From assembly GCF_002836595.1 (NCBI RefSeq), contig NZ_PJBB01000003.1, positions 186,001-250,000 on the forward strand: a stretch of 64,000 nt of DNA, in the 5' to 3' direction. Both the position numbers and the translations under genes were made by a program. The DNA comes from Tenacibaculum sp. Bg11-29. GTDB lineage: Bacteria; Bacteroidota; Bacteroidia; Flavobacteriales; Flavobacteriaceae. Every line of letters starts with the position of its first letter. Positions within the stretch are counted from its first letter, which is position 1. A model generated the notes under the pieces. The model worked only from the letters and a program-made list of their open reading frames with translations, had not been told where the DNA came from and searched no databases. Positions 7,486 to 22,302 of this stretch are shown one piece after another.

Positions 7486-8823
7486 ATGAAAAAAATTTTA
7501 CTAGTAGAAGATGACATTACTTTTTCTAATATCTTAAAACGTTTCCTTGAGCGTCACGATTACATTATAGATGTTAGCTATACAATAAGCAGTGCTTCTT
7601 CCTTATTAAAAAAGGAAAACTACAATTTAGTGTTTACCGATTTACGTCTTCCTGACGGCGATGGCATCACCTTTTTAAAACAAATCAAAAAAAACAATAA
7701 TGATATCCCCGTAGTTTTAATGACTAGTTATGCTGAAATTTCAACAGCAGTTCAAGCAATAAAACAGGGTGCATTTGATTACATTTCAAAACCTTTTAAT
7801 CCTGATGAAGTTTTAGAGGTTATTAATAATGCTTTAGAAGAAAAACCTACTAATAACACCTCTTCTTTAACAAATAAAACAAAAGAACAAAACGCTAGTA
7901 TTAAATTTGTTTCAGGAATAAGCGCTACATCAAAAACACTGTATGAATATATTCATTTAGTAGCCCCTACCGATATGTCTGTTCTTATAACAGGAGAAAG
8001 TGGGACAGGAAAAGAAGTTGTTGCTCAAACAATTCATACAGAAAGCACACGAAACAACAAACCTTTTATTGCTGTAGATTGTGGAGCTATACCTAAAGAA
8101 ATTGCTTCAAGTGAATTTTTCGGACATAAAAAAGGTTCATTTACTGGTGCTACAAATGATAAAAAAGGACATTTTGAAGCTGCTAATGAAGGCACTTTAT
8201 TTTTAGATGAAGTAGGGAATTTAAACTACGAGAGCCAAGTACAATTATTACGCGCCTTACAAGAAAGGAAAATTAAACCTTTAGGAAGTAGTCAAGAAAT
8301 AAAAGTTGATATCCGTTTAATTACAGCTACAAATGAAGACCTATTACTCGCTGTTGAAGAAGGTAACTTTCGAGAAGATTTATATCATCGTTTAAATGAA
8401 TTTTCGATAAAAGTACCTAGTTTAAAAGACAGGAATGATGATTTAATTTTATATGCTGATTTTTTTTTAGATAAAGCAAATAAAGAACTCAATAAATCTA
8501 TTGTTGGTTTCTCTAAAGAAGTACTTGCCTTATTTCAAGGCTATCAATGGCCTGGTAACTTACGTGAGTTATCTAATATTATAAAAAGAGCAACCTTATT
8601 ATCACAAACTGAAATCATCGAAAAAAATGTACTTCCAGAAGGGTTATTTAACGTTAAAAATCAATCTAACGTTTCTAAAAAATTTTCTACCAAAGAAAAT
8701 GAGAAAAAACTTATTATAAGAGCTCTAGAAGAAGCAGATAATAATAAAACTCAAGCTGCAAAATTATTAAGCATTACAAGAAAAACACTTTATAATAAAA
8801 TAAAAGAATACGATCTTAACTAA
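7486..8823 (+). CDS. sigma-54-dependent response regulator (NtrC family)
   Basis: 445 residues in three domains. A receiver comes first, with phospho-acceptor Asp52 in TDLRLPDGDG and the Lys in SKPF near 102. An AAA+ sigma-54 activation domain follows, with Walker A GESGTGKE at 170-177, the sigma-54 loop GSFTGA at 217-222 (a variant of GAFTGA), Walker B TLFLDE at 237-242, and WPGNLREL near 360. A Fis-type helix-turn-helix ends the protein (NNKTQAAKLLSITRKTLYNKI). It should activate sigma-54 promoters when phosphorylated. Its 3' end overlaps the convergent hybrid kinase gene by 8 bases, and that kinase is the likely partner. Confidence 0.95.
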   Translation: MKKILLVEDDITFSNILKRFLERHDYIIDVSYTISSASSLLKKENYNLVFTDLRLPDGDGITFLKQIKKNNNDIPVVLMTSYAEISTAVQAIKQGAFDYISKPFNPDEVLEVINNALEEKPTNNTSSLTNKTKEQNASIKFVSGISATSKTLYEYIHLVAPTDMSVLITGESGTGKEVVAQTIHTESTRNNKPFIAVDCGAIPKEIASSEFFGHKKGSFTGATNDKKGHFEAANEGTLFLDEVGNLNYESQVQLLRALQERKIKPLGSSQEIKVDIRLITATNEDLLLAVEEGNFREDLYHRLNEFSIKVPSLKDRNDDLILYADFFLDKANKELNKSIVGFSKEVLALFQGYQWPGNLRELSNIIKRATLLSQTEIIEKNVLPEGLFNVKNQSNVSKKFSTKENEKKLIIRALEEADNNKTQAAKLLSITRKTLYNKIKEYDLN

Positions 8824-11242
8824 GGTAATTTTCTAGCTCTAAAATAAACTCATTAAATATTTTTTTAAAATCAGCAAAAAGAATACTATCAATTTTTTCA
8901 CCAGTTTCAAACACTTCTAAAAAAGGAACGAGTGTTACAGCATTTATTTGCCTAAACATACTTATCATTTTATGGCTAACGTCATTAAATATTTTTAAAT
9001 CATTATTTATTTGTGCTTTCTCTAATAGTAAAAAATCATTTTGAGTCTCTTTTAAAAAGAGGCTCAACGTACTCTGTATCAAAAGCGCATCATTATCTAG
9101 AAAAGCCCCTAAAGAAACAACATCAAAAAAACTTGTTTCTTTTACTTTATTCTCGATTTCACTAATACTATTGGGTTTTAAAATACAACTACTGAAATAT
9201 TTTTGTAAAATACTCTCTAATTTATTAAGATGAAATGGTTTTATTAACACATCAGAAAAACCTGCTTTAACATACTCCTTCATAGATAAACTAGTCCTAC
9301 CTGTCATCGCTATTATTGGTTGATTACTGTATGAATCATGATTTTTTAGAGTTTCCATGAAATGAAAACCATTCATTTTCGGAAGTTGAATGTCTGTTAA
9401 AACCAAGTCGTAATATATTTCACTAACACTTTTTAAAGCAGTTTGTGCATTATTAAAAAGATAAACTTTTACTCCTAATTGTTCCAGTTTCTCCTTTAAA
9501 AGCGTTCCCATAGCTACATCATCTTCAACAACAATAGCTTTTAAACTAAAAACGGCACCTTCATTTGATATCGAAGACTCATGTAATGATTCTTCTGAAA
9601 AAGCTACAGGAATCTTTAATGTAAATACACTTCCTTCCCCTAAATTACTACTTAAAGTTAACTTCCCTCCTAATAATTCAGCAAGCCGATTAGAAATAGT
9701 TAACCCCAAACCAAAACCATTTCGGTCATTACTTCCTGTTTCAATCTGAGTAAAAGCTTTAAAAACATTTTGTTGTTGATCTTTATCAATACCAACACCT
9801 GTATCACTCACTATTATTTTTAAATAAGTTTTAGCATTCTCTTTTTCAATACTACTGTTAATTGTAATAAACCCTTCTTCTGTAAATTTACTAGCGTTAG
9901 TTACTAAATTATATAAAATTTGCTTTATTCTAAACGGGTCACTAATAATAGGCGAAGCTATTGTTTCATCATGTTTTAAGATCACAGAAACAGGCTTATC
10001 TTTTACTAAATTTTCGGTATTATCTACAACTTCTGTCAAGTATTTTTTTAAATCAAAAGAAATAGACTCTACGCCAACTTCTCCACTTTCTAATTTAGAA
10101 AATTCTAAAAGATCGGCAACCAACTGCCTCATATATACAGATGCATTCTGAATATGCTCTATATAATTTTTCTCTTTAACATTTTGTGCTTCTTTTTGAA
10201 GTAACTCGCTATAACCAATAATGGTACTTAAAGGGGTTCTTAAATCATGACTCACCATAAACATCAATTGTTCTCTACTATTTAAAAGCGATGAAGCTAT
10301 CGAATTTGCCTGCTCTAATTCCTTTCTATAATGCTGGCTTTTCCAGAAATCGTCTAAAATAATAAATGAAAAAAGAAGTATAATAATAAAACCAATTGCC
10401 GCTGCAAATAGAATAATATTCTTACTTCGGTTAAGAGTTTCTTCTCGCTCTTTGTAAATATTTTTTGTATAAATGATAACATCTTTCTCTAAAACATTTA
10501 ACATTTCTCTTAATTTCCTCGAAATAATTAAATCATTTTTAATCAATACTCTCTCTTTTGCACGTAAAGATCTACGTTTGTTATTTGTTTCCCTCTGTGC
10601 CTTTTTAAGTATATTTTTAGAAATAGAAACTAGAGAATCTATTTGTTTTTGATCAACTTTATTAATATTAACATTGGCATCTTGTTGATTTATTGTATGA
10701 AGATATTCTTCTAAATTCTTAAGGGTTTTTTCATCTAAAAATGAAGAGTTCTCTACAATTTTTTTAACTGAACCACCACCTAATAATAAATCTATAGACC
10801 CTAATTTATCTAGAGCTTCATTAATAGATTCATCTGAATTCTTTTGTAATTTTAACCTCTTTAAACCCGTAATGTTTTTACGCTTTCTGGTTAAAACTAA
10901 CTTAATACTGTCTAGAATAAATTTTTGAGAGCCATTATTTACAATAAAATTAAGTGAATCAATTTTCAATAATAATTGTTTATTCTCATAAACATACTCC
11001 TTAAATCTTTTAGTTGAGTTTAACTGAATAGCTGCCCTACCTAAATTTTCATTTTCATAGACTTTAGCAATTAAACTTCCGGTTTGTATAATTTTCTTTC
11101 CGTCTAAAACCCCTTGTCTTTGTAATTTTGTAAAAGTTTTAATTTCGGAGAGTAATAACCCCCCTGAAATAGTAGCCAAAACACCAAGTATTAAATATCC
11201 TATTAAAACTTTAAAAGCAATTTTCTGTTTTGATGATTTCAT
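8816..11242 (-). CDS. hybrid sensor histidine kinase with receiver and Hpt-like tail
   Basis: 808 residues. Order: TM1 (10-32), a roughly 240-residue periplasmic sensor rich in charged helices, TM2 (275-297), a coiled linker, HisKA with His332 in VSHDLRTPLS, an ATPase domain with VTNASKF and GFGLGLTIS, a receiver with Asp617 in TDIQLPKMNG, and a C-terminal helical region with His757 in SHKMISMF resembling an Hpt domain. Such a protein can run a complete phosphorelay and pass phosphate to a separate regulator. The only nearby one is the NtrC-type protein encoded convergently, with an 8-base overlap of the two 3' ends. The signal sensed is unknown. Confidence 0.93.
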   Translation of the reverse strand: MKSSKQKIAFKVLIGYLILGVLATISGGLLLSEIKTFTKLQRQGVLDGKKIIQTGSLIAKVYENENLGRAAIQLNSTKRFKEYVYENKQLLLKIDSLNFIVNNGSQKFILDSIKLVLTRKRKNITGLKRLKLQKNSDESINEALDKLGSIDLLLGGGSVKKIVENSSFLDEKTLKNLEEYLHTINQQDANVNINKVDQKQIDSLVSISKNILKKAQRETNNKRRSLRAKERVLIKNDLIISRKLREMLNVLEKDVIIYTKNIYKEREETLNRSKNIILFAAAIGFIIILLFSFIILDDFWKSQHYRKELEQANSIASSLLNSREQLMFMVSHDLRTPLSTIIGYSELLQKEAQNVKEKNYIEHIQNASVYMRQLVADLLEFSKLESGEVGVESISFDLKKYLTEVVDNTENLVKDKPVSVILKHDETIASPIISDPFRIKQILYNLVTNASKFTEEGFITINSSIEKENAKTYLKIIVSDTGVGIDKDQQQNVFKAFTQIETGSNDRNGFGLGLTISNRLAELLGGKLTLSSNLGEGSVFTLKIPVAFSEESLHESSISNEGAVFSLKAIVVEDDVAMGTLLKEKLEQLGVKVYLFNNAQTALKSVSEIYYDLVLTDIQLPKMNGFHFMETLKNHDSYSNQPIIAMTGRTSLSMKEYVKAGFSDVLIKPFHLNKLESILQKYFSSCILKPNSISEIENKVKETSFFDVVSLGAFLDNDALLIQSTLSLFLKETQNDFLLLEKAQINNDLKIFNDVSHKMISMFRQINAVTLVPFLEVFETGEKIDSILFADFKKIFNEFILELENYLS

Positions 11243-11471
11243 AAAAATAAATACCTCTTTTTAATACTCATAATCTCTTTTACTAAATTTACAAAAACTC
11301 TTTTTTTAAAATTTTGCTGTTCCAGCCACACGACCATTTTTGAAAATTACTAAAAAATTCCAAAGGTAAAATTAACATTTAATTAAACTTAATTTGTGAC
11401 TCTTTATTTAAAAAAGTGTCTTAAAAGCGTAAGTAAAAAATAAATTACGTTTTATTGAATATTTTATTGCA

Positions 11472-11479
11472 TACTTTTG
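11472..11479 (+). promoter_or_regulatory. candidate -7 box for the Pel-like operon
   Basis: TACTTTTG fits TAnnTTTG exactly and sits 53 bases before the first gene of the operon. The context ATACTTTTGC is identical to the box before the TonB receptor at 60.5 kb. A TTG at 11455-11457 is somewhat too close for an ideal -33 element. Confidence 0.5.
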
Positions 11480-11532
11480 CAGCCAAAAAAAATTATCCCC
11501 TTAATTAATTGTATTGTATATAACATTAACTC

Positions 11533-13041
11533 ATGAACAAGAGGGTATTACTTATTACCGAGGGAACTTACCCTTATAATTACGGAGGTGTTTCTAATTG
11601 GGCACATACTTTATGTAATTTAGCCAAAAATATTGATTTTCATTTATATTCATTAAACTCCAATTTTGAAAATAAATCTAAATATCTGCTTAGTCCTAAT
11701 ATTAAAAGTATTACTCAACTTCCTCTTTGGACTACTGACCATCCTTTTGATCTTATTGATTATAATACTTCTTATACAAGAATTATAGAAAAAAAGTTTA
11801 AAACTACAGATATTATTATTAAAAATAATTTTATAAATCATTTTAGATCTTTTATAAAAAATTTAATTAGTAATAATTGTGATTTAGAGGTCTTAGAAAC
11901 TTCAATTTATAATTTATATGATTATTTTCAAGAGTATGACTTTGATAAAACCTTAAAAAGCTTAGATGTTTGGACTGAATTTAAAGTTATTTTAATAGAA
12001 GAAGAATCATTAGAAACCTTAGAAACAACAACATTAAATGATATTACATTTTCTCTAAATTGGATTAGTAAAATTTTAATGACACTATCTATACCAATTC
12101 CTAAAATAGATATCGCTCATATTACAATCACAGGTTCTCCTATTATTCCAGCTTTAATAGCTAAAAAAGAACATGGTAGCTCAATTTTAGCTACCGAACA
12201 TGGCGTATTTATTAGAGAACTCATGATTTACACAAATAGCTCTACTCATTCTTTTTTTCTTAAAAATCTTATGATTAGATCCTCCAAATCCATAACAAAA
12301 CTTGCTTTTGCTAAAGCAGATAAAGTTGTGTCTGTTAATAAGTTTAACACAAAATGGGAATTTAATTATGGCTTATCAAAAGAAAAATCGAAAATAATTT
12401 ACAATGGTGTAAATGAAAATGAGTTTACCTTTGGTGACAAACCTAAACACCTAAAAAACATACCTACTGTTGTCGCTATTGCTAGAATTTTTTCTTTAAA
12501 AGACATTTTCACAATGATTAGAACATGTGGTTATGTAAAAAAGACTATTCCAAATGTACAATTTTTGGTTTATGGAGATAAAAACGCAGATCCAGAATAT
12601 ACTCAAGGATGTAATGACTTAATTAAAGAGCTTAAACTTACAAAAAATTTCATTTTAGCTGGACATCACGGAGCTCCTCACAAAGCGTTTCTAGAAGGAG
12701 ACATTTCTATTCTTACTTCTATTTCAGAAGGTTTTCCATATACAGTAATAGAATCTATGAGTTGCGGAATACCAGTTGTAGCAACAGATGTTGGTGGTGT
12801 AAGTGAAGCTATTACAGAATCTACAGGATTTATATGTGAACCGAAAAAATTTGAAGATTTAGGTGACAAGGTAATTTACCTGTTACAAAATAAAGATATA
12901 AGACTTCAAATGGGACGAAATGCAAGAAAAAGAGTTCTTGAGAATTTTACTATAGATAAAATCATCAAATCATATGAAGACCTATATGAAGATCTAATGG
13001 TAAAAGAAAAAATTGAGGACTATGCCGAACAATTACATTAG
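11533..13041 (+). CDS. pelF: PelF-like GT4 glycosyltransferase
   Basis: 502 residues. The N terminus LLITEGTYPYNYGGVSNWAH is characteristic of PelF, the cytoplasmic glycosyltransferase that polymerises the Pel exopolysaccharide from UDP-amino sugars. The central ATEHGVFIRE and the C-terminal donor-site region SEGFPYTVIESMSCGIPVVA with the GT4 E-x7-E pair are present. The length agrees with PelF. It is the first gene of a five-gene operon and its end overlaps the flippase gene by 20 bases, which implies translational coupling. No PelD-type c-di-GMP receptor is found next to it, unlike the classical pel operon. Confidence 0.9.
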   Translation: MNKRVLLITEGTYPYNYGGVSNWAHTLCNLAKNIDFHLYSLNSNFENKSKYLLSPNIKSITQLPLWTTDHPFDLIDYNTSYTRIIEKKFKTTDIIIKNNFINHFRSFIKNLISNNCDLEVLETSIYNLYDYFQEYDFDKTLKSLDVWTEFKVILIEEESLETLETTTLNDITFSLNWISKILMTLSIPIPKIDIAHITITGSPIIPALIAKKEHGSSILATEHGVFIRELMIYTNSSTHSFFLKNLMIRSSKSITKLAFAKADKVVSVNKFNTKWEFNYGLSKEKSKIIYNGVNENEFTFGDKPKHLKNIPTVVAIARIFSLKDIFTMIRTCGYVKKTIPNVQFLVYGDKNADPEYTQGCNDLIKELKLTKNFILAGHHGAPHKAFLEGDISILTSISEGFPYTVIESMSCGIPVVATDVGGVSEAITESTGFICEPKKFEDLGDKVIYLLQNKDIRLQMGRNARKRVLENFTIDKIIKSYEDLYEDLMVKEKIEDYAEQLH

Positions 13042-14614
13042 AAACTACACAATAATACTTAAACAAGTTCAGCATAAAATAGGAAAACCTGTTTCTGTTG
13101 ATGTTGTTATTGCTATTATTGAATCTTTTGGTATAAAAGATAAAGACACTGCTGTTTACTATAATTTTAAAGACATTAAATCTTTAGCTATTGGCATTTT
13201 TAAAGAGCTTAGTTTAGATATATATAATGATCTTAAAAATGAGCAAGAAATTCAAGAAGAATTAAATATAAAAAAAGAAAAAGAAGGCTTTTTTTATGAA
13301 GCCTCTCTTTTTATTAAATCTTATTTATCAAATACTTCTTATTTATTAGCTTTTGTTATTCAACTAATAACCATCATCTTGTTTGGTTCTTCTCTTTATG
13401 CTTTTGTTGGATTTAATAAATTACAATCTACAACCGTTATTTTAGGTGTTATTTTAGGAATGGTATTAAGTGGTGGTACCATACAAGTAATTGGTAACGA
13501 AATATCTAAACACTATTATTTAAATGACTTTTCTATGGTTAGAAAAATGACTTTCTACCTAATCAAGCAAGGTCTTTTTATTTTAATAAGTGTACTCTTA
13601 TTTTTAAATATTTTAAACTATTTAATTCCTTTCTATCCCCATAAAATGGTTCTTTTTACATCAATTTATGCATTTTTAATTGGCTTTCTTTTTTTAGTGT
13701 TTGCTCCTCTTCATGTGTTAAAAAGCCGCATAATAATCTTTATATCCACAACTTTCCCAACCTTTTTAGGTATCTATTTAATTAAAGAGAGTAAATTAAA
13801 TATCTATCAAATACATTTTATAGGATTACTACTGGCTATAGCCATCGTTATAATTTTCATACTCATATATTTTAAATTTAAAAAAGCAAAAAAGAGTAAA
13901 AATAAAAAATATAGAATAGGAGTTCTTTTTTATAATAATTTTTATTTCTTTTTATATGGTCTTCTTATTAATCTATTCTTTTTTATAGATAGAATAATAG
14001 CATGGTCTAGCTATAAAATAAGTAACTTCTTTTTTCCTGTTTATTATGAAAAAGACTACGAGATAGGTATGGATTTAGCTATTATATTCTTCTTATTATT
14101 AGCTGGTTCTATAGAATATAACAGTACTTATTTTATTAGAAATTTAAACAAAAAACGTAAAAACACTAAGCTTACTGATATCATATCATATAAAAAAAAC
14201 GTACACGATTTATACTTAAAAAATGTATTGTTATTATGTAGTACTGCAATTCCAATTTTTATACTTGTACAATATATTATTTATGGTAAATGGGGGTATA
14301 ATTATTTTTTCTCAGAACCAATTAAGTACACAAACATAAAAGTAGCGCAAATAGGTATGCTTGCTTATTTTTTTATTTGTTGGGGTATATTAAACACCTC
14401 TTATTTAACCGTATTAAAACGACAAAAAAAAGCGCTCGAAATACTTTTCATGGCTTGCGTCTCCAATATCATATTTGGTTTTACATTAAGCAGGTTATTT
14501 TCTTATGAAGATAGTGTTTATGGATTATTAGCAGGCGCTATTTTATTTGCGGGGCTTACATTAAAAGAAAATATTAACATCTTAAAAAACATCGATTATC
14601 ATACACCTTATTAA
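13022..14614 (+). CDS. pelG: PelG-like polysaccharide flippase
   Basis: About 530 residues with roughly 12 membrane segments. I chose the ATG at 13022 rather than the in-frame TTG at 13013; both overlap the pelF end. The order after pelF, the polytopic MOP-flippase layout and segments such as FFFIDRIIAWSS and a later SIEYNSTYF match PelG, the inner-membrane partner of PelF. It differs from classical PelG by a soluble N-terminal extension of about 95 residues (charged, helical) before the first membrane segment. The stop TAA overlaps the proposed ATT start of the next gene. Assignment relies on both sequence layout and neighbourhood. Confidence 0.75.
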   Translation: MPNNYIRNYTIILKQVQHKIGKPVSVDVVIAIIESFGIKDKDTAVYYNFKDIKSLAIGIFKELSLDIYNDLKNEQEIQEELNIKKEKEGFFYEASLFIKSYLSNTSYLLAFVIQLITIILFGSSLYAFVGFNKLQSTTVILGVILGMVLSGGTIQVIGNEISKHYYLNDFSMVRKMTFYLIKQGLFILISVLLFLNILNYLIPFYPHKMVLFTSIYAFLIGFLFLVFAPLHVLKSRIIIFISTTFPTFLGIYLIKESKLNIYQIHFIGLLLAIAIVIIFILIYFKFKKAKKSKNKKYRIGVLFYNNFYFFLYGLLINLFFFIDRIIAWSSYKISNFFFPVYYEKDYEIGMDLAIIFFLLLAGSIEYNSTYFIRNLNKKRKNTKLTDIISYKKNVHDLYLKNVLLLCSTAIPIFILVQYIIYGKWGYNYFFSEPIKYTNIKVAQIGMLAYFFICWGILNTSYLTVLKRQKKALEILFMACVSNIIFGFTLSRLFSYEDSVYGLLAGAILFAGLTLKENINILKNIDYHTPY

Positions 14615-15407
14615 ATATTACATTCTACCTATAAGCCTTCTTTTTTCTACAAAAAGCTTCTGTAATTCAAACATTGATACTATTTTTCTATGTTATGGAA
14701 AAGTACCTGTACATCAAATCACCAATTTCAAGTATGTAATTCTTGAAGAGGTTCATTATACAAAAGAAGAAATAACACAACTAAAACAAAAAAACGAGAA
14801 AGTTTTATGCTATATCTCTCTAGGAGAAATCCATAAGTACGTTTCTTTTTTTAAAGAAGCCAAAAACTACACATTAGAAGGAAAAAACACTATTTGGGAC
14901 AGTTATTATCTTGATTTAAATCAAAAACCTCTTCAAGAAATTTTACTAAAAAACATTCAAGAAAAGCTAACTAAAGGCTTTGACGGCCTTTTTTTAGACA
15001 ATATTGACAATTACGGTCCTTATGGTAAACAAAAAAAACAAACAAAAAAATTAGTTGAATTTCTAACAACTATTAAAAGCCGTTTTCCTGAAATATACTT
15101 AATGCAAAATGCAGGGTTAGCTATTATAAAACAAACACATACTTTTATTAATTCAGTAGCTATAGAATCTGTTATAACTAATTATAATTTCGAGAAAAAA
15201 AAATATCTATTTCGAGAAAAAAAAGAAAGTAAAAAAATTATAGAGCGATTAAAAAAAATAGAAGAAGATTATAAATTACCCATCTTATTAATTGAATACA
15301 CCGAGAGTAAGAGAAAGTGCAATAAAATAAAAAGGAAATTAAATAAATACGATTGGCCTGTTTTCATAGGTCAAATTAATCTACAAAAAAAACCAACCTT
15401 CAACTAA
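14610..15407 (+). CDS. GH114-type polygalactosaminidase-like protein without a canonical start codon
   Basis: The frame is open from 14586 to the stop at 15405-15407, but it contains no ATG, GTG or TTG before the ATG at 15102, which is in mid-domain. From an ATT at 14610, overlapping the flippase stop, the product would begin KYYILPISLLFSTKSFC, a plausible signal peptide. The domain that follows shows GH114 (endo-alpha-1,4-polygalactosaminidase) features: YISLGE, GFDGLFLDNID with the likely catalytic Asp, and a late IESV with the likely acid. It corresponds to the hydrolase half of PelA. Either a rare ATT start is used or the start codon has mutated. Confidence 0.68.
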   Translation: MKYYILPISLLFSTKSFCNSNIDTIFLCYGKVPVHQITNFKYVILEEVHYTKEEITQLKQKNEKVLCYISLGEIHKYVSFFKEAKNYTLEGKNTIWDSYYLDLNQKPLQEILLKNIQEKLTKGFDGLFLDNIDNYGPYGKQKKQTKKLVEFLTTIKSRFPEIYLMQNAGLAIIKQTHTFINSVAIESVITNYNFEKKKYLFREKKESKKIIERLKKIEEDYKLPILLIEYTESKRKCNKIKRKLNKYDWPVFIGQINLQKKPTFN

Positions 15408-15408
15408 A

Positions 15409-15672
15409 ATGGAAACTTTTGAAATTGCTATATATTATAATTTGATAAGATTTCTTTCTATTGCTCTTTTATTCTATTTTTTTAAAAAAAAAATAGATTC
15501 AAAAAAAGAAATTTTATTTTCAGATTTTCTAATTATTAATACTAGTAAATATATTAGTATTAGTATAATTACAGTTTTCTTACTAGTACAATTTAATAAT
15601 TATAATCTTTTAATTATTTATTTCTTGTTTCTTTATTTTTTATTCTTGACTTCAGAAACTTTAAAAACCTAA
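15409..15672 (+). CDS. N-terminal part of a frameshifted membrane protein
   Basis: 87 residues with two strongly hydrophobic segments (about 9-24 and 50-83), starting 1 base after the GH114 gene. It ends in the heptamer T TTA AAA, one codon before the stop. A -1 shift there enters the frame of the large membrane protein that continues to 17378. I read this as the first exon-like portion of one ~656-residue polytopic protein, not as an independent gene. No family was recognised. Confidence 0.55.
   Translation: METFEIAIYYNLIRFLSIALLFYFFKKKIDSKKEILFSDFLIINTSKYISISIITVFLLVQFNNYNLLIIYFLFLYFLFLTSETLKT
15660..15666 (+). promoter_or_regulatory. slippery heptamer T TTA AAA, candidate -1 frameshift site
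   Basis: The zero frame is read T TTA AAA ACC TAA, which fits the X XXY YYZ slippery pattern directly before a stop. After a -1 slip, translation continues AAC CTA ACT AAA in a frame open to 17378. No obvious stimulatory hairpin follows, so a simple one-base deletion is an equal or likelier explanation. Confidence 0.35.
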
Positions 15673-15851
15673 CTAAAATTTATGGTTCAATAAAAATTGC
15701 GGTTAATAATTTACTAATTAAATCAATCTCTTTTATAGAAGAACCTGAAAAAATAAAATACCTTAAATCATATAATCAAAAAAAAAGGTTTTCAAGAAAA
15801 GAAATTTCAGATATATTCTCAATAGTACTAATAACTATTGCTACACCATTA

Positions 15852-17378
15852 TTGAGATTTTTTTTTTATAAGAACGATGTTTATCTTTTTTCTGAAAACT
15901 GGTTCGATAACTTTAAAAAAACAAATTCACTGCCTAGTAATCAATGGTTTAACAGCAACTACGTAGAAACTGGAGAATTTGTTCTTATTGATTTATTCAG
16001 TAAAATATCAAAAGTTAGTACAGGAATGTCTTTACAGTTTTTTGGAATTATTCAAACTATACTTTTATCTATAATTATATATTGGGTTGTAAAAAAATCT
16101 AGCCCTAAAAAAGAAAACTTAATTTCTCTCCTTTTTTCTTTTGTTTTCATAGGTGCAATTAATTTATCTCCTTTAGATGTTAACTACATTTTAAAACATC
16201 ATAATATTTTTTCCGCTTTATTTTTATTACTCCCTCTTTTAATTGTTTTAATTAAAACTCAAGATTTCCATTTTAATAATAAAACAAAATTAGTTTATAT
16301 ACACGCTATTTTAATAGCTTCTTTTTTAATCTCTTTTTCAGGAGTTATCATTGTATTCACTCTTTTCCTCTTACTTATTTTCTTATACGATTCTAATAAG
16401 CACATTAAACAAAAAGCACTATTATTATTTTATTTTATAACTTCTATGATATTCGTTTTATCTGCATACATGATATTTTATAATCATGGAGATTTTAATA
16501 TTTGGTTCTTTATTAAAAGTAGCTTTATTCAAATATCTGCCTTTTCAAAAACGGCTAACTTACTTTTTCCTTATATCAACCTTATAAAAATAACGATGCT
16601 TTTATGCTTTATAGGTATTGTAAGCACTCTTCTTATAAAGAAAAATAGTATTTTATTAATCACTTCTTTATTTTATCTCCTCTTAGCAATACTATATCAA
16701 GTAGACCATTATTTAATAGATCATAGTTTACTTTTTTTAATTTTTAGTGTTTTTACACCAATGGTAATTGGTATAAATGTAGTTAACATTATTAATCTAT
16801 TACCCTTAAAACTTATTAAAACAAGAAATATTGTTACGGCATCTTTTATCTCACTGTCTTTATTTTACTTAGTGTATACTCAAAAAGATCTTTTCTTAAG
16901 TTTAAAAATCTCGAATGAAACAAATAGAGAACTTTTAAATGCTTACAGCAAAATAACTAGCACACATTTACCATATACATATGCAATAATTAATCATGAC
17001 AAAGCAGCTTTATTTAGTGAAAACAGCCACTTTTTTACTACTTATACTGATTTTAGTATAAATTATTTAAAAAGAGATTCTATCTATTTTTCCCATATAA
17101 AAGATAAAAAATTTCTAAAAAAAAAGCCAGAAATAATTTTACCACACAGTGTATTTCTTTTTGAAATTCTTGGTGTTGACAAAAATGTTAATAGAATAGG
17201 AATTCTAACAGGTTTACCACAATTAAAAATAAATAAAACGATAATAAATACTTTAAAAAATAGAAAAAGAAATATTAAAGTATACATCGAAACAAACAGA
17301 CTTCGAGTCTATGAAATAGTTAATAAAAAAGGTAGTAGTAATATTAACGAAATATTATTTTACGATAAAAAATCATGA
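15852..17378 (+). CDS. polytopic membrane protein of the Pel-like operon, main part
   Basis: 508 residues from a TTG at 15852, but the same frame is open back to 15606 and encodes a credible continuation (LTKIYGSIKIAVNN and so on), so the TTG is probably not the natural start. About ten membrane segments occupy the first 350 residues; a soluble C-terminal domain of some 150 residues follows. The loop with FDNFKKTNSLPSNQWF and the overall layout recall GT-C-like membrane enzymes, but I do not recognise the family. It overlaps the next gene by ATGA (17375-17378), so the operon is translationally coupled. By position it could take the place of PelE/PelD; that is inference. Confidence 0.65.
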   Translation: MRFFFYKNDVYLFSENWFDNFKKTNSLPSNQWFNSNYVETGEFVLIDLFSKISKVSTGMSLQFFGIIQTILLSIIIYWVVKKSSPKKENLISLLFSFVFIGAINLSPLDVNYILKHHNIFSALFLLLPLLIVLIKTQDFHFNNKTKLVYIHAILIASFLISFSGVIIVFTLFLLLIFLYDSNKHIKQKALLLFYFITSMIFVLSAYMIFYNHGDFNIWFFIKSSFIQISAFSKTANLLFPYINLIKITMLLCFIGIVSTLLIKKNSILLITSLFYLLLAILYQVDHYLIDHSLLFLIFSVFTPMVIGINVVNIINLLPLKLIKTRNIVTASFISLSLFYLVYTQKDLFLSLKISNETNRELLNAYSKITSTHLPYTYAIINHDKAALFSENSHFFTTYTDFSINYLKRDSIYFSHIKDKKFLKKKPEIILPHSVFLFEILGVDKNVNRIGILTGLPQLKINKTIINTLKNRKRNIKVYIETNRLRVYEIVNKKGSSNINEILFYDKKS

Positions 17379-20300
17379 AAAAAATATTTTTATTCATACA
17401 AGTCACAGCCACATTATCATTTGTATTTTTAATACTAAACAATTACTTTATTGTAGATAAGGGTTCAATCGAAAATATAAATAATTCTTCAAAAAAAGAA
17501 TTCTCTTCAAGTAATTTCTATAATGAAACATCTCAACCTATAATTAGTTATCTTATAAAAGAAGAAGACTTAAATACAAATATTACTTATAAAAACACAA
17601 AAAAACTATGTGATTATACAAAATTTCCATTTGGTATTATTACACCCAAAAAAATTAATAAAGACAATTATGAAATTGCTCCATCTATCAAAACAATTTG
17701 CATTAATAAAACAACCGATTTATCTAATAATGCTATTCAGAAAATATTAAGTTTTGTTAATAATGGAGGTTCTATTATAATAACTAATACAATTAATGAC
17801 AAAAGGTTTAATTATTTAATAGGTCTTAAGAAAAATAGAAATCAACACGTTTATAATAACACTGCAAAAGGCTTTTTTTTTAAGAATGATTTTTTACCTA
17901 ACCTTAATACATCTACACTATATGAAGATGTAATACATTATGGTTTTAGTAAAAAAAGTTTTACTAAAAACATAAACGTAATTATTCCATCTGTTAATGA
18001 AAAAACATATCCTGTGATTCTTGAAAACAGTATAGGTTTGGGGAAAGTTATTTTTTATAACTCTAGTTTAGAAATATCAAAATTCGAACGAGGAATTTTA
18101 TTTTCTTCATTACTCTCTACATTAGAAGAAGTTCCTTACCCTATAGCCAATGTAAACACAATTTTTCTAGATGATTTTCCAAGTCCAACTTATCCTTTTA
18201 AAAGAGAACCTGTCGTAAGTGAATTTAATGTATCAAATCAAGAATTCGTGAATAAAATTTGGTGGCCAGATATGCTAAAATTAGCAAAAAAACATACGCT
18301 GAAATATACTGCAACTATTATTTTTGATTACGAAGAAAACACCGTTCCACCTTTTTCACTCAAAGAATGGAATAGCTCAAAGCTAAATAACATACCAATT
18401 CCCCATTTACTAACAAATGCATTATTAGACAATAATCACGAATTAGGTTTTCATGGATACAATCATGTTTCACTGCTCAAAAAAAACTGGACCCCTAAAA
18501 ACACAGAAATTGCGCTTCAAACTGTAAAAAAAATATGGACCCTAAACGACTATAAAAAACTACCTACCTCATATATTCCTCCATCAAATTACATTGATAA
18601 ATTTGGAATAGCGTCTTTAAACAGACACCTATCATCAATAAAATACATGTGTAGTCTTTACACTGGTGAATTTATTAAAGGTGGAGGTAGAGAATACGAT
18701 CCTGAACCTTATTCAAGAAATTTGTTTGATTTCCCTAGAGTAACATCAGGTTTCTATTTAAATAACTCAAAAAAATATTTAAAAGAATCTGTTTATTTAT
18801 TCACAGGTATTTGGTCACACTTCGTTCACCCTGATGATATTTACCAAATCCCGAGTGAAGATAATGCTAAAACGAGGGGTAAATTTAGCTATAGAAATAG
18901 TTTAAATCTTAATTGGAAAGAAAAGAATAAAAAAGGGATTGAAGGAATGTATCAACAATTCGATAATCTAATAAAAACACATAAGAAGAATTATCCTCTC
19001 ACAACATTTCCGGATGTAAGAACTGCTGGAAAAACAGTTACAAACATAAGAAGCAATAGTTATAAACATACAATAGAAAAACATTTTTATACTGTTAGTA
19101 ATTTAAAAAAAGAAAAACATAAACAAGATTGGTTTTTATATATTTCCAATAAAAAGAAAGGAGCTTTAATAACTTATTTAAAGGAAAAAAATATTCTTTT
19201 TTCATCTTTACCAATTCATAAAGGAGTGTTACTAAATATTAAAACAGATACACAAGAAATTAAAATACCTCTTTATAAAAACAAACTACAAAAAGATAGA
19301 ATAGGATTCTATAAAACACTACAAGACTACAATACCTACATTAATTTTAAAGAAAAGGAGGCTTCTTTTATTACCGTAAGTCAAAAAATGAAACTGCTTC
19401 GTAAAGAATTGCTTTCAAGTAAAAAAATTGACAAAGAAAAATGGAAAACATATGCTAAATATTGTAGCTGGGAAAAGAAAGAACATCAATTTTGGTCTGA
19501 TTTAGAACAATACTATTACATAAATAAAAATTATGAAACGGCGATGCTTTCTGAAGAATTAGCTAAGGTAATATGGTATTTCTCTAAAGGAGATAGAGAA
19601 AAATGGTTAGGCAGACAAATTTTAACAGCCACTACTTCTAAAATAAAACTAGCACTCATAAATATTTATATTAAAAATTTTAATACCAAAGATAATTTAA
19701 AAGCTATTATTGATAAATTTAAAATAAGAGCAACATTAAACCCTACTTCTAAAAACAAAGTAGCATATATATCATTGCTTTTATGGAACAAACAACCAGA
19801 AACCATAGCCGTTTTAAATGAACTCCCCCCTTCAAATGATTATAAAGAAATAGCGAAGGATATTGCTTGGCACTTTCATAAAAAAGGAAATATAAAAAAA
19901 GCTTTAGCATGGGCACATTTAACAAATGAAATACCAATAAACACTAAACTATATTGGCTTTTTAATTCAAAAAAATATGCTGAGTTAGAGAACTATTACA
20001 ATACTTATATTCAACACAATAAAAATGATGATTTAGCAAAAATAACAATGAGTTATTTTTACTTATCTAGAAAAAAAATTAAAGAATCATGGATAATAGC
20101 CTCCACAATAAACAGTGATTATTCTGATTATAATAGTATTCAAAAAGAGCTTAATGGTATACTAAAATATCAAGACATTAATTTACAAGAAGATATAATA
20201 AACAATTATGACACCTCTTTTCTTTTAGATAAAGTAAAAGAAAACATAAAACGTTTAATTGTTTTACAGACAAACAATTCAATAAGTTTTACATCTTCTT

Positions 20301-21124
20301 TAGATACTTATAGAAATGATATAGCTTATTTTGATAAATCAATTACATATAGTAAGGTTTCTAAAAAATTACATGTACATAGTTTATCAGCAACGAATAC
20401 CTTAATAGCGTCAAACAATAAAGTAAGTAGAGGTAAAGAATTATATGGTCTTCAATATAAGTTTGAAAACTCAAGAATGCTAAATAATAAGCTAAATTAT
20501 TATACTAAATTAAGAGTTGAAACTGATAAAGGAAAGTATTATTACAAATTTGGTATGGGAGGTAGTTACAATTTAAAAAAGAATTTTATTTCTTTAAGTT
20601 ATAATGTTTTTCCTGTAAAAAATAGTGTTGCCTATAATGAAAATCTTTATAAAAATCAATTTGGTATATATGCCGAAAGAGTTTTTAAAAACAGGGCTAA
20701 TTTACTTATGTATATAGAGTCAAATTATTATTCTAATCATCAAAAAAACATTTCATATAATGTAGCCGCTAATCAGCCGATTTATAAATTTGGTTCTCAA
20801 CAAATAAGAGCAACAATAGAAGGATCTTATGCTTTAGGCTCTACCAATTTCACAAGTGGTTTGCCTTTTTTTATGCTTAAAAAAAGACTTTTTGGTGGTG
20901 GTGGTTTTCAATATCTATTTAATACAGATGTAGATAAGACTAATGTTTTTATAGATGCTTTAACTTTTTCTGACAGTCATGCAGGTCTTTTTACAAGGTT
21001 TAGATCTCAGGTTAATTTTCAACTTAAAAAATATTTTATTGTAAACTTTAAAGGAGAATTGTTTTTAAATAAACAATACTACTCAAACTCTTTTAATGTT
21101 GGTTTAACTTACTATATCAAATAG
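17375..21124 (+). CDS. fusion: PelA-like deacetylase (DUF2194) + TPR-like region + PelB-like outer-membrane barrel
   Basis: 1249 residues. An N-terminal hydrophobic export segment (4-26) is followed by a Rossmann-like domain with NGGSIIITN near 130. A DUF2194/polysaccharide-deacetylase domain comes next: FLDDFPSP with Asp266-Asp267, metal-binding HGYNH at 360-364, PPSNY near 402, and IWSHFVHPDD near 487. Residues of about 690-960 are helical, TPR-like repeats. The last ~290 residues are alternating aromatic strands ending in YYIK, like an outer-membrane barrel. In Pseudomonas, PelA deacetylates Pel and PelB supplies the TPR scaffold and export barrel; here both appear in one chain. The GH114 half of PelA is encoded separately upstream. 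Confidence 0.75.
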   Translation: MKKIFLFIQVTATLSFVFLILNNYFIVDKGSIENINNSSKKEFSSSNFYNETSQPIISYLIKEEDLNTNITYKNTKKLCDYTKFPFGIITPKKINKDNYEIAPSIKTICINKTTDLSNNAIQKILSFVNNGGSIIITNTINDKRFNYLIGLKKNRNQHVYNNTAKGFFFKNDFLPNLNTSTLYEDVIHYGFSKKSFTKNINVIIPSVNEKTYPVILENSIGLGKVIFYNSSLEISKFERGILFSSLLSTLEEVPYPIANVNTIFLDDFPSPTYPFKREPVVSEFNVSNQEFVNKIWWPDMLKLAKKHTLKYTATIIFDYEENTVPPFSLKEWNSSKLNNIPIPHLLTNALLDNNHELGFHGYNHVSLLKKNWTPKNTEIALQTVKKIWTLNDYKKLPTSYIPPSNYIDKFGIASLNRHLSSIKYMCSLYTGEFIKGGGREYDPEPYSRNLFDFPRVTSGFYLNNSKKYLKESVYLFTGIWSHFVHPDDIYQIPSEDNAKTRGKFSYRNSLNLNWKEKNKKGIEGMYQQFDNLIKTHKKNYPLTTFPDVRTAGKTVTNIRSNSYKHTIEKHFYTVSNLKKEKHKQDWFLYISNKKKGALITYLKEKNILFSSLPIHKGVLLNIKTDTQEIKIPLYKNKLQKDRIGFYKTLQDYNTYINFKEKEASFITVSQKMKLLRKELLSSKKIDKEKWKTYAKYCSWEKKEHQFWSDLEQYYYINKNYETAMLSEELAKVIWYFSKGDREKWLGRQILTATTSKIKLALINIYIKNFNTKDNLKAIIDKFKIRATLNPTSKNKVAYISLLLWNKQPETIAVLNELPPSNDYKEIAKDIAWHFHKKGNIKKALAWAHLTNEIPINTKLYWLFNSKKYAELENYYNTYIQHNKNDDLAKITMSYFYLSRKKIKESWIIASTINSDYSDYNSIQKELNGILKYQDINLQEDIINNYDTSFLLDKVKENIKRLIVLQTNNSISFTSSLDTYRNDIAYFDKSITYSKVSKKLHVHSLSATNTLIASNNKVSRGKELYGLQYKFENSRMLNNKLNYYTKLRVETDKGKYYYKFGMGGSYNLKKNFISLSYNVFPVKNSVAYNENLYKNQFGIYAERVFKNRANLLMYIESNYYSNHQKNISYNVAANQPIYKFGSQQIRATIEGSYALGSTNFTSGLPFFMLKKRLFGGGGFQYLFNTDVDKTNVFIDALTFSDSHAGLFTRFRSQVNFQLKKYFIVNFKGELFLNKQYYSNSFNVGLTYYIK

Positions 21125-21174: not shown

Positions 21175-22302
21175 ATGAAAAAAATTCAAATGGTTGACCT
21201 ACAAGGTCAGTACGCAAAAATAAAACCACAAGTAAATAAAGCTTTTGATAGTGTCTTAGACACAGCCTATTATATTGGTGGCCCCGAAGTTAAAGGGTTT
21301 GGAAGTGATTTAGAAAAATATTTAGATGTAAAACATGTAATTCCGTGCGCTAACGGAACCGATGCTTTACAAATTGCAATGATGGGATTAGGCTTAGAAC
21401 AAGGTGACGAAGTTATTACTGCCGATTTTACTTTTGCTGCAACCGTAGAGGTTATTGCTTTATTAAAGTTAACTCCTGTTTTAGTTGATGTTGAACCAGA
21501 TACTTTTAATATTGATATTGAAGCATTAAAAAAAGCAATTACACCAAAAACAAAAGCAATTGTACCTGTTCATTTATTTGGGCAATGTGCTAATATGGAA
21601 GCGGTAATGCAAATTGCTAAAGAGCATAACTTATTTGTTATTGAAGATAACGCGCAAGCAATTGGAGCTGATTATACATTCTCTGACGGAACAAAAAAGA
21701 AATCTGGAACTATTGGACATATAGGAACAACTTCATTTTTCCCTTCTAAAAACTTAGGTTGTTATGGTGATGGTGGTGCTATTTTTACAAATGATGATGA
21801 TTTAGCTCATACAATAAGAGGTATTGTAAATCACGGAATGTACAAACGTTATTACCACGATGTAGTTGGGGTAAATTCTCGTTTAGATAGTTTACAAGCT
21901 GCTGTTTTACAAATAAAATTACCTTTATTAGATAATTTTTGTGATGCGCGTAGAAAAGCTGCAATGTATTATTCTGAAGCTTTTTCTACTAACTCGAATA
22001 TCATTACGCCTGCTATTAGCGTTTTTACCACTCATGTTTTTCATCAATATACTTTAAGAATAACAAATGGTAAACGAGATGAATTACATCAATACTTATT
22101 AGATAATAATATTCCGAATGCAATTTATTACCCAGTACCTTTACATGCACAGAAAGCATATAAAGATGAGCGCTATAATGAAAACAATTTCGCTATTACC
22201 AATCAATTAATTGACGAAGTAATTTCTTTACCTATGCATACTGAATTAGATGAAGAGCAATTAATGTTTATTACAAAAACAATTAATGATTTTGTTTCTT
22301 AA
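21175..22302 (+). CDS. DegT/DnrJ/EryC1/StrS-family sugar aminotransferase
   Basis: 375 residues, the usual family length. PLP-enzyme features seen: the N-terminal VDLQGQY, CANGTDALQIAM (phosphate binding), IEDNAQAIGADY (Asp contacting the pyridine N), and the Schiff-base Lys in FFPSKNLGCYGDGGA. Such enzymes transfer an amino group from glutamate to a keto group of a nucleotide-activated sugar. It lies 50 bases behind the Pel-like operon, so it could feed amino sugars to it, but it has its own promoter box and the same type of gene is common in other surface-glycan pathways. Confidence 0.9.
   Translation: MKKIQMVDLQGQYAKIKPQVNKAFDSVLDTAYYIGGPEVKGFGSDLEKYLDVKHVIPCANGTDALQIAMMGLGLEQGDEVITADFTFAATVEVIALLKLTPVLVDVEPDTFNIDIEALKKAITPKTKAIVPVHLFGQCANMEAVMQIAKEHNLFVIEDNAQAIGADYTFSDGTKKKSGTIGHIGTTSFFPSKNLGCYGDGGAIFTNDDDLAHTIRGIVNHGMYKRYYHDVVGVNSRLDSLQAAVLQIKLPLLDNFCDARRKAAMYYSEAFSTNSNIITPAISVFTTHVFHQYTLRITNGKRDELHQYLLDNNIPNAIYYPVPLHAQKAYKDERYNENNFAITNQLIDEVISLPMHTELDEEQLMFITKTINDFVS

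Follow-up and report, generated by a model that had tools for sequence, protein, structure and literature searches.

Can five genes be sufficient to assemble, modify and export a Pel-type exopolysaccharide? This question is raised by a gene cluster of the flavobacterium Tenacibaculum sp. Bg11-29, whose 4.54-Mb genome (G000) was analysed here over a stretch of 64,000 nucleotides (contig NZ_PJBB01000003.1, positions 186,001 to 250,000), referred to below as the window. Between positions 11533 and 21124, five overlapping or abutting frames of the plus strand encode, in this order, a PelF-like glycosyltransferase, a PelG-like flippase, a PelA-type hydrolase, a polytopic membrane protein and a large fusion protein (Table 1); across related loci, the median intergenic gaps range from -14 to +4 bases. 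An earlier note, made from the window sequence, had proposed a five-gene operon at this place. Its layout and domain content hold, but the start of gene 3 and the frame of gene 4 had to be corrected. These five genes are likely to constitute a Pel exopolysaccharide machine in the form that it takes in Bacteroidota, with the modification and the export of the polymer brought together in one protein.

Table 1. Features of the cassette and of its fusion protein (window coordinates)
Feature	Position	Strand	Basis
pelF-like GT4 glycosyltransferase, 502 amino acids	11533..13041	+	NF038011, PF11997, EX7E motif
Divergent pelG-like flippase, 533 amino acids	13013..14614	+	12 hydrophobic segments; PF16933 in family members
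PelA-type hydrolase, GH114/GH166-like TIM barrel	14601..15407	+	PF03537; family profile against 5TCB; start-site comparison
Polytopic GT-C-fold protein (predicted), two frames here (15409-15672, 15606-17378)	15409..17378	+	Frames; model of the L044 relative
Fusion protein, 1249 amino acids: deacetylase, TPR-like helices and outer-membrane barrel	17375..21124	+	
Part of the fusion matching DUF2194: carbohydrate-binding and CE26-like deacetylase region of PelADA type	17522..19159	+	PF09960; profile against 9ZAU
TPR-like region of the fusion, about 20 helices	19298..20272	+	Structure model, helices 94-418
Beta-barrel of the fusion: 16 strands, with strands 7 and 8 separated by a short helix	20279..21115	+	

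A deacetylase joined to an exporter-like protein

The product of gene 5 matches the DUF2194 model PF09960 with 215.8 bits, and the profile of its family retrieves the PelADA protein of Bacillus cereus (PDB 9ZAU) with an E-value of 4e-71. This PelADA is described as a deacetylase of N-acetylgalactosamine (GalNAc) oligomers (PMC13254593). Among 78 aligned fusion sequences, the deacetylase motif HGYNH is present in all and LDDFP in 73. The deacetylase of the fusion matches in this respect the Gram-positive PelADA type (CE26, as 9ZAU), unlike the CE21 domain of Pseudomonas aeruginosa PelA. The earlier idea of a split PelA, with its deacetylase half joined to a PelB-like part, is retained in part: the hydrolase is separate and the fusion is real, but the deacetylase is not the CE21 half of the P. 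aeruginosa protein.

Beyond the deacetylase, the structure model of the fusion displays a tetratricopeptide repeat (TPR)-like region followed by a 16-stranded barrel, the arrangement of PelB. The five best among the structure matches listed for the barrel are BcsC (three entries), PelBC (9h80) and 4y25, the last being listed as a polysaccharide outer membrane secretin, which we take to be PgaA. By sequence, the profile of the TPR-barrel part gave weak repeat matches only, and the match to exporters came from structure. A deacetylase-TPR-barrel fusion, as had been suspected, is supported by a single chain of 1249 residues carrying the PF09960 match, the 9ZAU profile match and the exporter-like structure. 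The TPR-like region of the window copy, which shows a gap in the alignment, is shorter than that of many relatives, a trait found in the other Tenacibaculum copies too; the intact ones measure 1243-1254 residues and share this short region.

We know of no BcsC or PgaA, the exporters of cellulose and poly-N-acetylglucosamine respectively, that carries a deacetylase on the same chain. Their partner enzymes belong to families other than those of the cassette. In P. aeruginosa, a contact of the PelA deacetylase domain with TPRs 9-15 of PelB has been modelled (PMC12022489), and the fusion mirrors this contact as one polypeptide.

Two solitary DUF2194 paralogues of fusion length were also observed (L042, 13714-17643; L043, reverse strand), with the other four genes not nearby. 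Both have RGYND in place of the deacetylase motif HGYNH, and are therefore probably not deacetylases.

Predicted polymerase, flippase and hydrolase

Gene 1 is identified as pelF by the curated NCBIfam model NF038011 (144.1 bits for a cut-off of 100). Its product also matches PF11997 (DUF3492) with 149 bits, shares 43-51% identity with 10 relatives, and contains the EX7E motif at E399-E407; the PelF-type glycosyltransferase of the earlier note is confirmed by the curated cut-off and by this motif.

In the product of gene 2, 12 segments detected by hydropathy follow a soluble N-terminal extension of about 100 residues (about 13013-13324). The PelG model PF16933 is matched at E<=0.01 by 20 of the 47 members of the flippase family, with 3.1e-13 as the best value. 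A PelG-like flippase with an N-terminal extension is in this way supported for the family, but not for the window copy, which itself passes no family model (Pfam cut-offs; no match to PF16933). When 296 genomes of the phylum were searched with the PelG model, five gave a match above the cut-off that spans most of the model, each time within an open frame of 541-582 residues, and three of these matches (G429, G561, G530) are the PelG-like genes of clusters L180, L181 and L173. No canonical PelG of about 450 residues exceeded the cut-off in these 296 genomes, and a sequence search of the PDB with the flippase gave no PelG match. In locus L112 (1881-2834; the same gene as in L041), a 317-residue protein without Pfam match, resembling the C-terminal part of the flippase, is encoded two genes before pelF.

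Gene 3 matches PF03537 with 72.5 bits. The profile of its family retrieves the PelA hydrolase of P. aeruginosa (5TCB) with an E-value of 7.7e-30, the VES motifs being aligned at their Glu, other GH114-type structures following at 1e-6 to 1e-5 and a designed barrel in between (6.5e-15). The separate GH114 hydrolase claimed before is PelA-like by this match. The catalytic base of PelA is E218 (PMC9894940), to which the aligned Glu would correspond if residues are counted by hand from an assumed start of the construct.

Could the cluster be instead an unrelated O-antigen or capsule flippase-polymerase cluster merely resembling Pel, given that the flippase and the polytopic protein of the window pass no Pfam cut-off? 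This is very improbable: the matches to PelF, the PelG family, the PelA hydrolase and PelADA are specific, and the five genes travel together. The distinct Pel-like type suggested by the earlier note is upheld, unrelated O-antigen families being disfavoured by the family profiles.

Another GH114-like protein, of 313-388 residues, is encoded beside the cassette in 31 of 71 loci. It looks circularly permuted: a QNG motif and, after it, an invariant Glu precede the SIGE and FDG/D motifs, which is the reverse of the order in the cassette hydrolase (alignment of eight genes from L032-L041; rows of L044-L123). The C-terminal half of the L032 protein matches positions 17-119 of PF03537; of five N-terminal halves, a single one gave a match, to positions 129-227 (E 0.0048).

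Conservation and distribution of the cassette

Related loci were collected by a scan with the fusion-protein alignment, at one genome per species, and the best 80 of 396 loci were kept. All five families occur in one order and on one strand in 71 of these 80; seven of the other nine lie at contig ends, and two (L069, L089) have broken or missing genes. The nearest named loci belong to Tenacibaculum (48% and 47%). In a sample of 299 Flavobacteriaceae genomes, a large DUF2194 protein is present in 13, a number that comprises G000 and one protein truncated at the end of its contig, and three further genomes pass the DUF2194 cut-off with other, shorter matches only. The 12 carriers besides G000 have the cassette in ten cases and a solitary copy in two (L042, L043). 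Within the genus Tenacibaculum, 6 of 166 genomes match, with five full copies and one remnant. A remnant of 66-68 residues from the barrel end of the fusion gene was observed in this genus at L148 (8046-8246), no other cassette gene being found in the 18 kb examined around it.

The cassette is not restricted to Flavobacteriaceae and is scattered across Bacteroidota. Indeed, DUF2194 was matched at E<=1e-10 in 27 of 395 genomes of the phylum, always in frames of 1251-1349 residues, and 11 of the 12 carriers examined contain all five core families (the hydrolase of L178 being in two pieces), the twelfth, L173, having no hydrolase. The locus sets used here (Flavobacteriaceae, genus, phylum and best 80) overlap in part. 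Ten of these 12 wider relatives (L174, L175, L177-L184) have an extra gene of 526-547 residues between the PelG-like and hydrolase genes; an HD domain was recognised by Pfam in the two products tested, the others share HD and HHEW/HQEW motifs, and the GYP motif is found in none of the ten. L176 has the five cassette genes only, and L173 has GAF-HD (with GYP) and GAF-SpoIIE genes elsewhere in its cluster. The deep relatives also have a second DUF3492 glycosyltransferase.

Regulation and unrecognised components

A GGDEF domain was found in none of the 15 flavobacterial carriers, which include one genome with a completeness of 68%, whereas 8 of 14 control genomes were positive. Control by cyclic di-GMP (c-di-GMP) is therefore unlikely, and the c-di-GMP independence proposed by the earlier note is supported. 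The PelD_GGDEF model was also without match in the 15 carriers, but the controls were silent as well. GGDEF is present in 3 of the 12 wider relatives, and 8 of the 10 genomes bearing the HD gene have no GGDEF match. The flavobacterial form may have been streamlined by the loss of the HD regulator, a direction of change that we infer. Streptococcal Pel has been reported to work without c-di-GMP control (PMC12345266).

As the earlier note had it, PelC, PelD and PelE are not recognised, and the five genes include no candidate for PelD or PelE, even if no PelC or PelE model was searched. The one small neighbour examined, a protein of 144 residues occurring in 18 of 72 loci, matches no Pfam family.

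A polytopic protein with a predicted GT-C fold

Gene 4, a single frame of 619-688 residues in 75 of 80 related loci, encodes the sole polytopic protein of the cassette besides the PelG-like one. Searches with this protein or its family gave single weak matches in Pfam and scattered weak matches in NCBIfam, none of them convincing, and a sequence search of the PDB did not identify it. A protein search with the gene 4 alignment yielded 10 close relatives among the best 8000 candidates scored and is silent on wider relatives. The AlphaFold model of an intact Tenacibaculum relative (L044; predicted local distance difference test score 84, predicted TM-score 0.86) matched GT-C glycosyltransferases in a structure search. 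From this model, the protein is predicted to adopt a GT-C fold and is a putative glycosyltransferase. The unrecognised polytopic protein of the earlier note is still without a convincing Pfam or NCBIfam match, but its fold can now be assigned in this way. From known GT-C glycosyltransferases (STT3/PglB, ArnT, DPY19) it differs by an identity of about 10%, by the lack of a family model match and by its genomic setting.

A site of action at the periplasmic face is probable for the GT-C protein, which would there attach a lipid-linked sugar to the polymer or form a membrane scaffold in the manner of PelD/PelE. In GT-C enzymes, an acidic residue of the first outer loop has a catalytic role. An Asp of this loop (D157, L044 numbering) is invariant among the 71 flavobacterial-type sequences. 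Of the 16 rows of the deeper set, which keep the same core, only L176 has it, and the other 15 have N or H. Two other residues, D438 and D558, are each kept in 86 of 87 rows (two row pairs being the same contig); together with other charged residues, their conservation suggests a chemical or binding role.

Two different alternatives can be derived from these data. The cassette might make a non-Pel polysaccharide, the Pel parts being reused and the GT-C protein acting as the main polymerising or branching enzyme with a lipid-linked sugar. The invariant Asp of the flavobacterial-type sequences in a GT-C fold would fit such a role, as would the second DUF3492 glycosyltransferase of the deep relatives, and no GT-C protein is mentioned in the accessible parts of published pel descriptions. 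This nevertheless appears unlikely: the nearest matches of the hydrolase and the deacetylase are enzymes whose substrates are alpha-1,4-GalNAc polymers, the score of PelF exceeds the curated cut-off, and the Asp gives way to N or H in the deeper rows around the same core. This last replacement would rather suit a catalytically idle protein serving as inner-membrane scaffold in place of PelD/PelE, which are not recognised while gene 4 supplies the only polytopic protein besides the flippase. Such an idle role is in turn doubtful in view of the Asp kept in all 71 flavobacterial-type sequences and of the conserved D438 and D558.

State of the window copy and points against a Pel machine

Several observations weigh against the five genes forming a working Pel machine. 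In addition to the window flippase matching no family model, the structure model showing a TPR-barrel covers the window protein alone, and in deeper relatives the hidden Markov model match often ends after the deacetylase and a part of the helices. PelC, PelD and PelE were not recognised, although pelD and pelE have each been found necessary in B. cereus, and all seven pel genes in P. aeruginosa (PMC9894940). The GT-C protein has no counterpart in described Pel systems, so that the polymer could differ, and the presence of a full copy in only 5 of 166 Tenacibaculum genomes indicates that the cassette is dispensable in this genus.

Two further points concern the window itself. The hydrolase frame (14586-15407) has no ATG, GTG or TTG before 15102, and the position equivalent to 14601, which is ATG in 66 of 72 loci, is ATA. 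Gene 4 is broken into two frames, and an artefact of sequencing or assembly would look no different here from a real lesion; its relatives in L044, L146, L147 and L149 are intact, and the window copy is out of frame relative to them. On account of this frameshift, the window copy may not be active. Two Tenacibaculum relatives of the gene 4 product, P0009 (570 residues) and P0010 (507 residues), are likewise short at the N-terminus. A fresh lesion was considered for the missing ATG of gene 3, but this is weakened since the nearest relative, L146, lacks the same ATG; a TTG is present upstream there and the rest of the cassette is intact.

That the operon of this genome is a decaying relic is a serious possibility, although not the more probable one. 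The frameshift, the ATA codon and the fusion remnant of 66-68 residues in another genome of the genus point in this direction. Against it, genes 1, 2 and 5 have kept both their length and their motifs, L146 shows that the ATG can be missing from an otherwise intact cassette, a base-calling error is possible in this A/T-rich stretch, and the short TPR region is common to intact Tenacibaculum copies.

Comparison with known systems and proposed mechanism

With pelABCDEFG of P. aeruginosa, the cassette has in common PelF, PelG, a PelA-type hydrolase, a deacetylase and an exporter made of TPRs and a 16-stranded barrel. It differs by the hydrolase and deacetylase being carried by separate proteins, by a deacetylase of family CE26 instead of CE21, fused to the exporter, and by an extra GT-C protein, in the absence of recognised PelC, PelD and PelE and of GGDEF in 15 carriers. 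With pelDEADAFG of B. cereus and streptococci, it shares PelADA (CE26/CBM114, 9ZAU), a separate hydrolase, PelF, PelG and, in some loci, a DUF4832 accessory gene nearby. Here, however, the host is Gram-negative, an outer-membrane exporter is fused to PelADA, no PelD or PelE is recognised, and the gene order is F-G-hydrolase-GT-C-fusion. The system would work like Pel, with which it shares five parts, but it differs from the canonical pel operon. Among the papers listed in literature searches, judged by titles and the beginnings of abstracts and with subscription journals largely outside, none dealt with such a cassette, with a PelADA-PelB fusion or with a GT-C protein in a pel operon.

From computed data, namely gene content, conservation, domains, two predicted folds and GGDEF absence, we infer the substrate, the direction of transport and all activities of the following scheme. 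PelF would polymerise an amino-sugar chain (GalNAc in Pel) on the cytosolic side, and the PelG-like flippase would move it across the inner membrane. In the periplasm, the deacetylase end of the fusion would partly deacetylate the chain, which would be handed along the protein's own TPR-like region into its 16-stranded barrel for export, one polypeptide replacing the PelA-PelB contact of P. aeruginosa. The separate PelA-type hydrolase would trim chains, and the GT-C protein, at the periplasmic face, would transfer a lipid-linked sugar to the polymer or act as a scaffold like PelD/PelE, the whole receiving no c-di-GMP input. A bolder version can be offered tentatively, its odds being rather low: a third, c-di-GMP-free Pel lineage in which the GT-C protein would add a polyprenyl-borne sugar in the periplasm, before deacetylation and export by a single protein, giving a decorated and chemically new polymer.

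Neighbouring genes

A sigma-54-type (NtrC-type) response regulator gene and a convergent hybrid histidine kinase gene are located at 7486-11242, between a penicillin-amidase gene and pelF. No sigma-54 site was found before pelF, in 11243-11532, with one loose pattern. The gene directly beside pelF in L146 and L149 is on the minus strand and measures 794-796 residues. The cassette is followed in the window by a DegT-type aminotransferase gene (21175-22302); a gene of the same length (375 residues) occupies this position in L146 and L149 and precedes a GalE-like sequence start, read by eye.

Downstream of the cassette, a DUF4832/DUF4874 gene is present on the opposite strand in 18 of 72 loci (Pfam run on one). 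Genes with DUF4832 are also associated with pel in streptococci and clostridia (PMC7112168), and in Streptococcus intermedius a protein containing this domain is a hydrolase able to break up aggregates formed by Pel (PMC12345266). In 14 of 72 loci, the cassette is immediately preceded by genes for a metal-dependent repressor and a ZIP metal transporter (Pfam on L066, 1235-2715).

Implications

If this interpretation is true, Pel is extended to Bacteroidota. The fusion of a deacetylase with an exporter bears on the open question of a physical coupling between deacetylation and export through the outer membrane, and the cassette offers targets made of few proteins for reconstitution. In addition, c-di-GMP, PelC, PelD and PelE may drop out of the minimal Pel set. 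The presence of the GT-C protein leads to the prediction that the polymer carries something that the Pel of P. aeruginosa does not, or that this protein is an idle scaffold.

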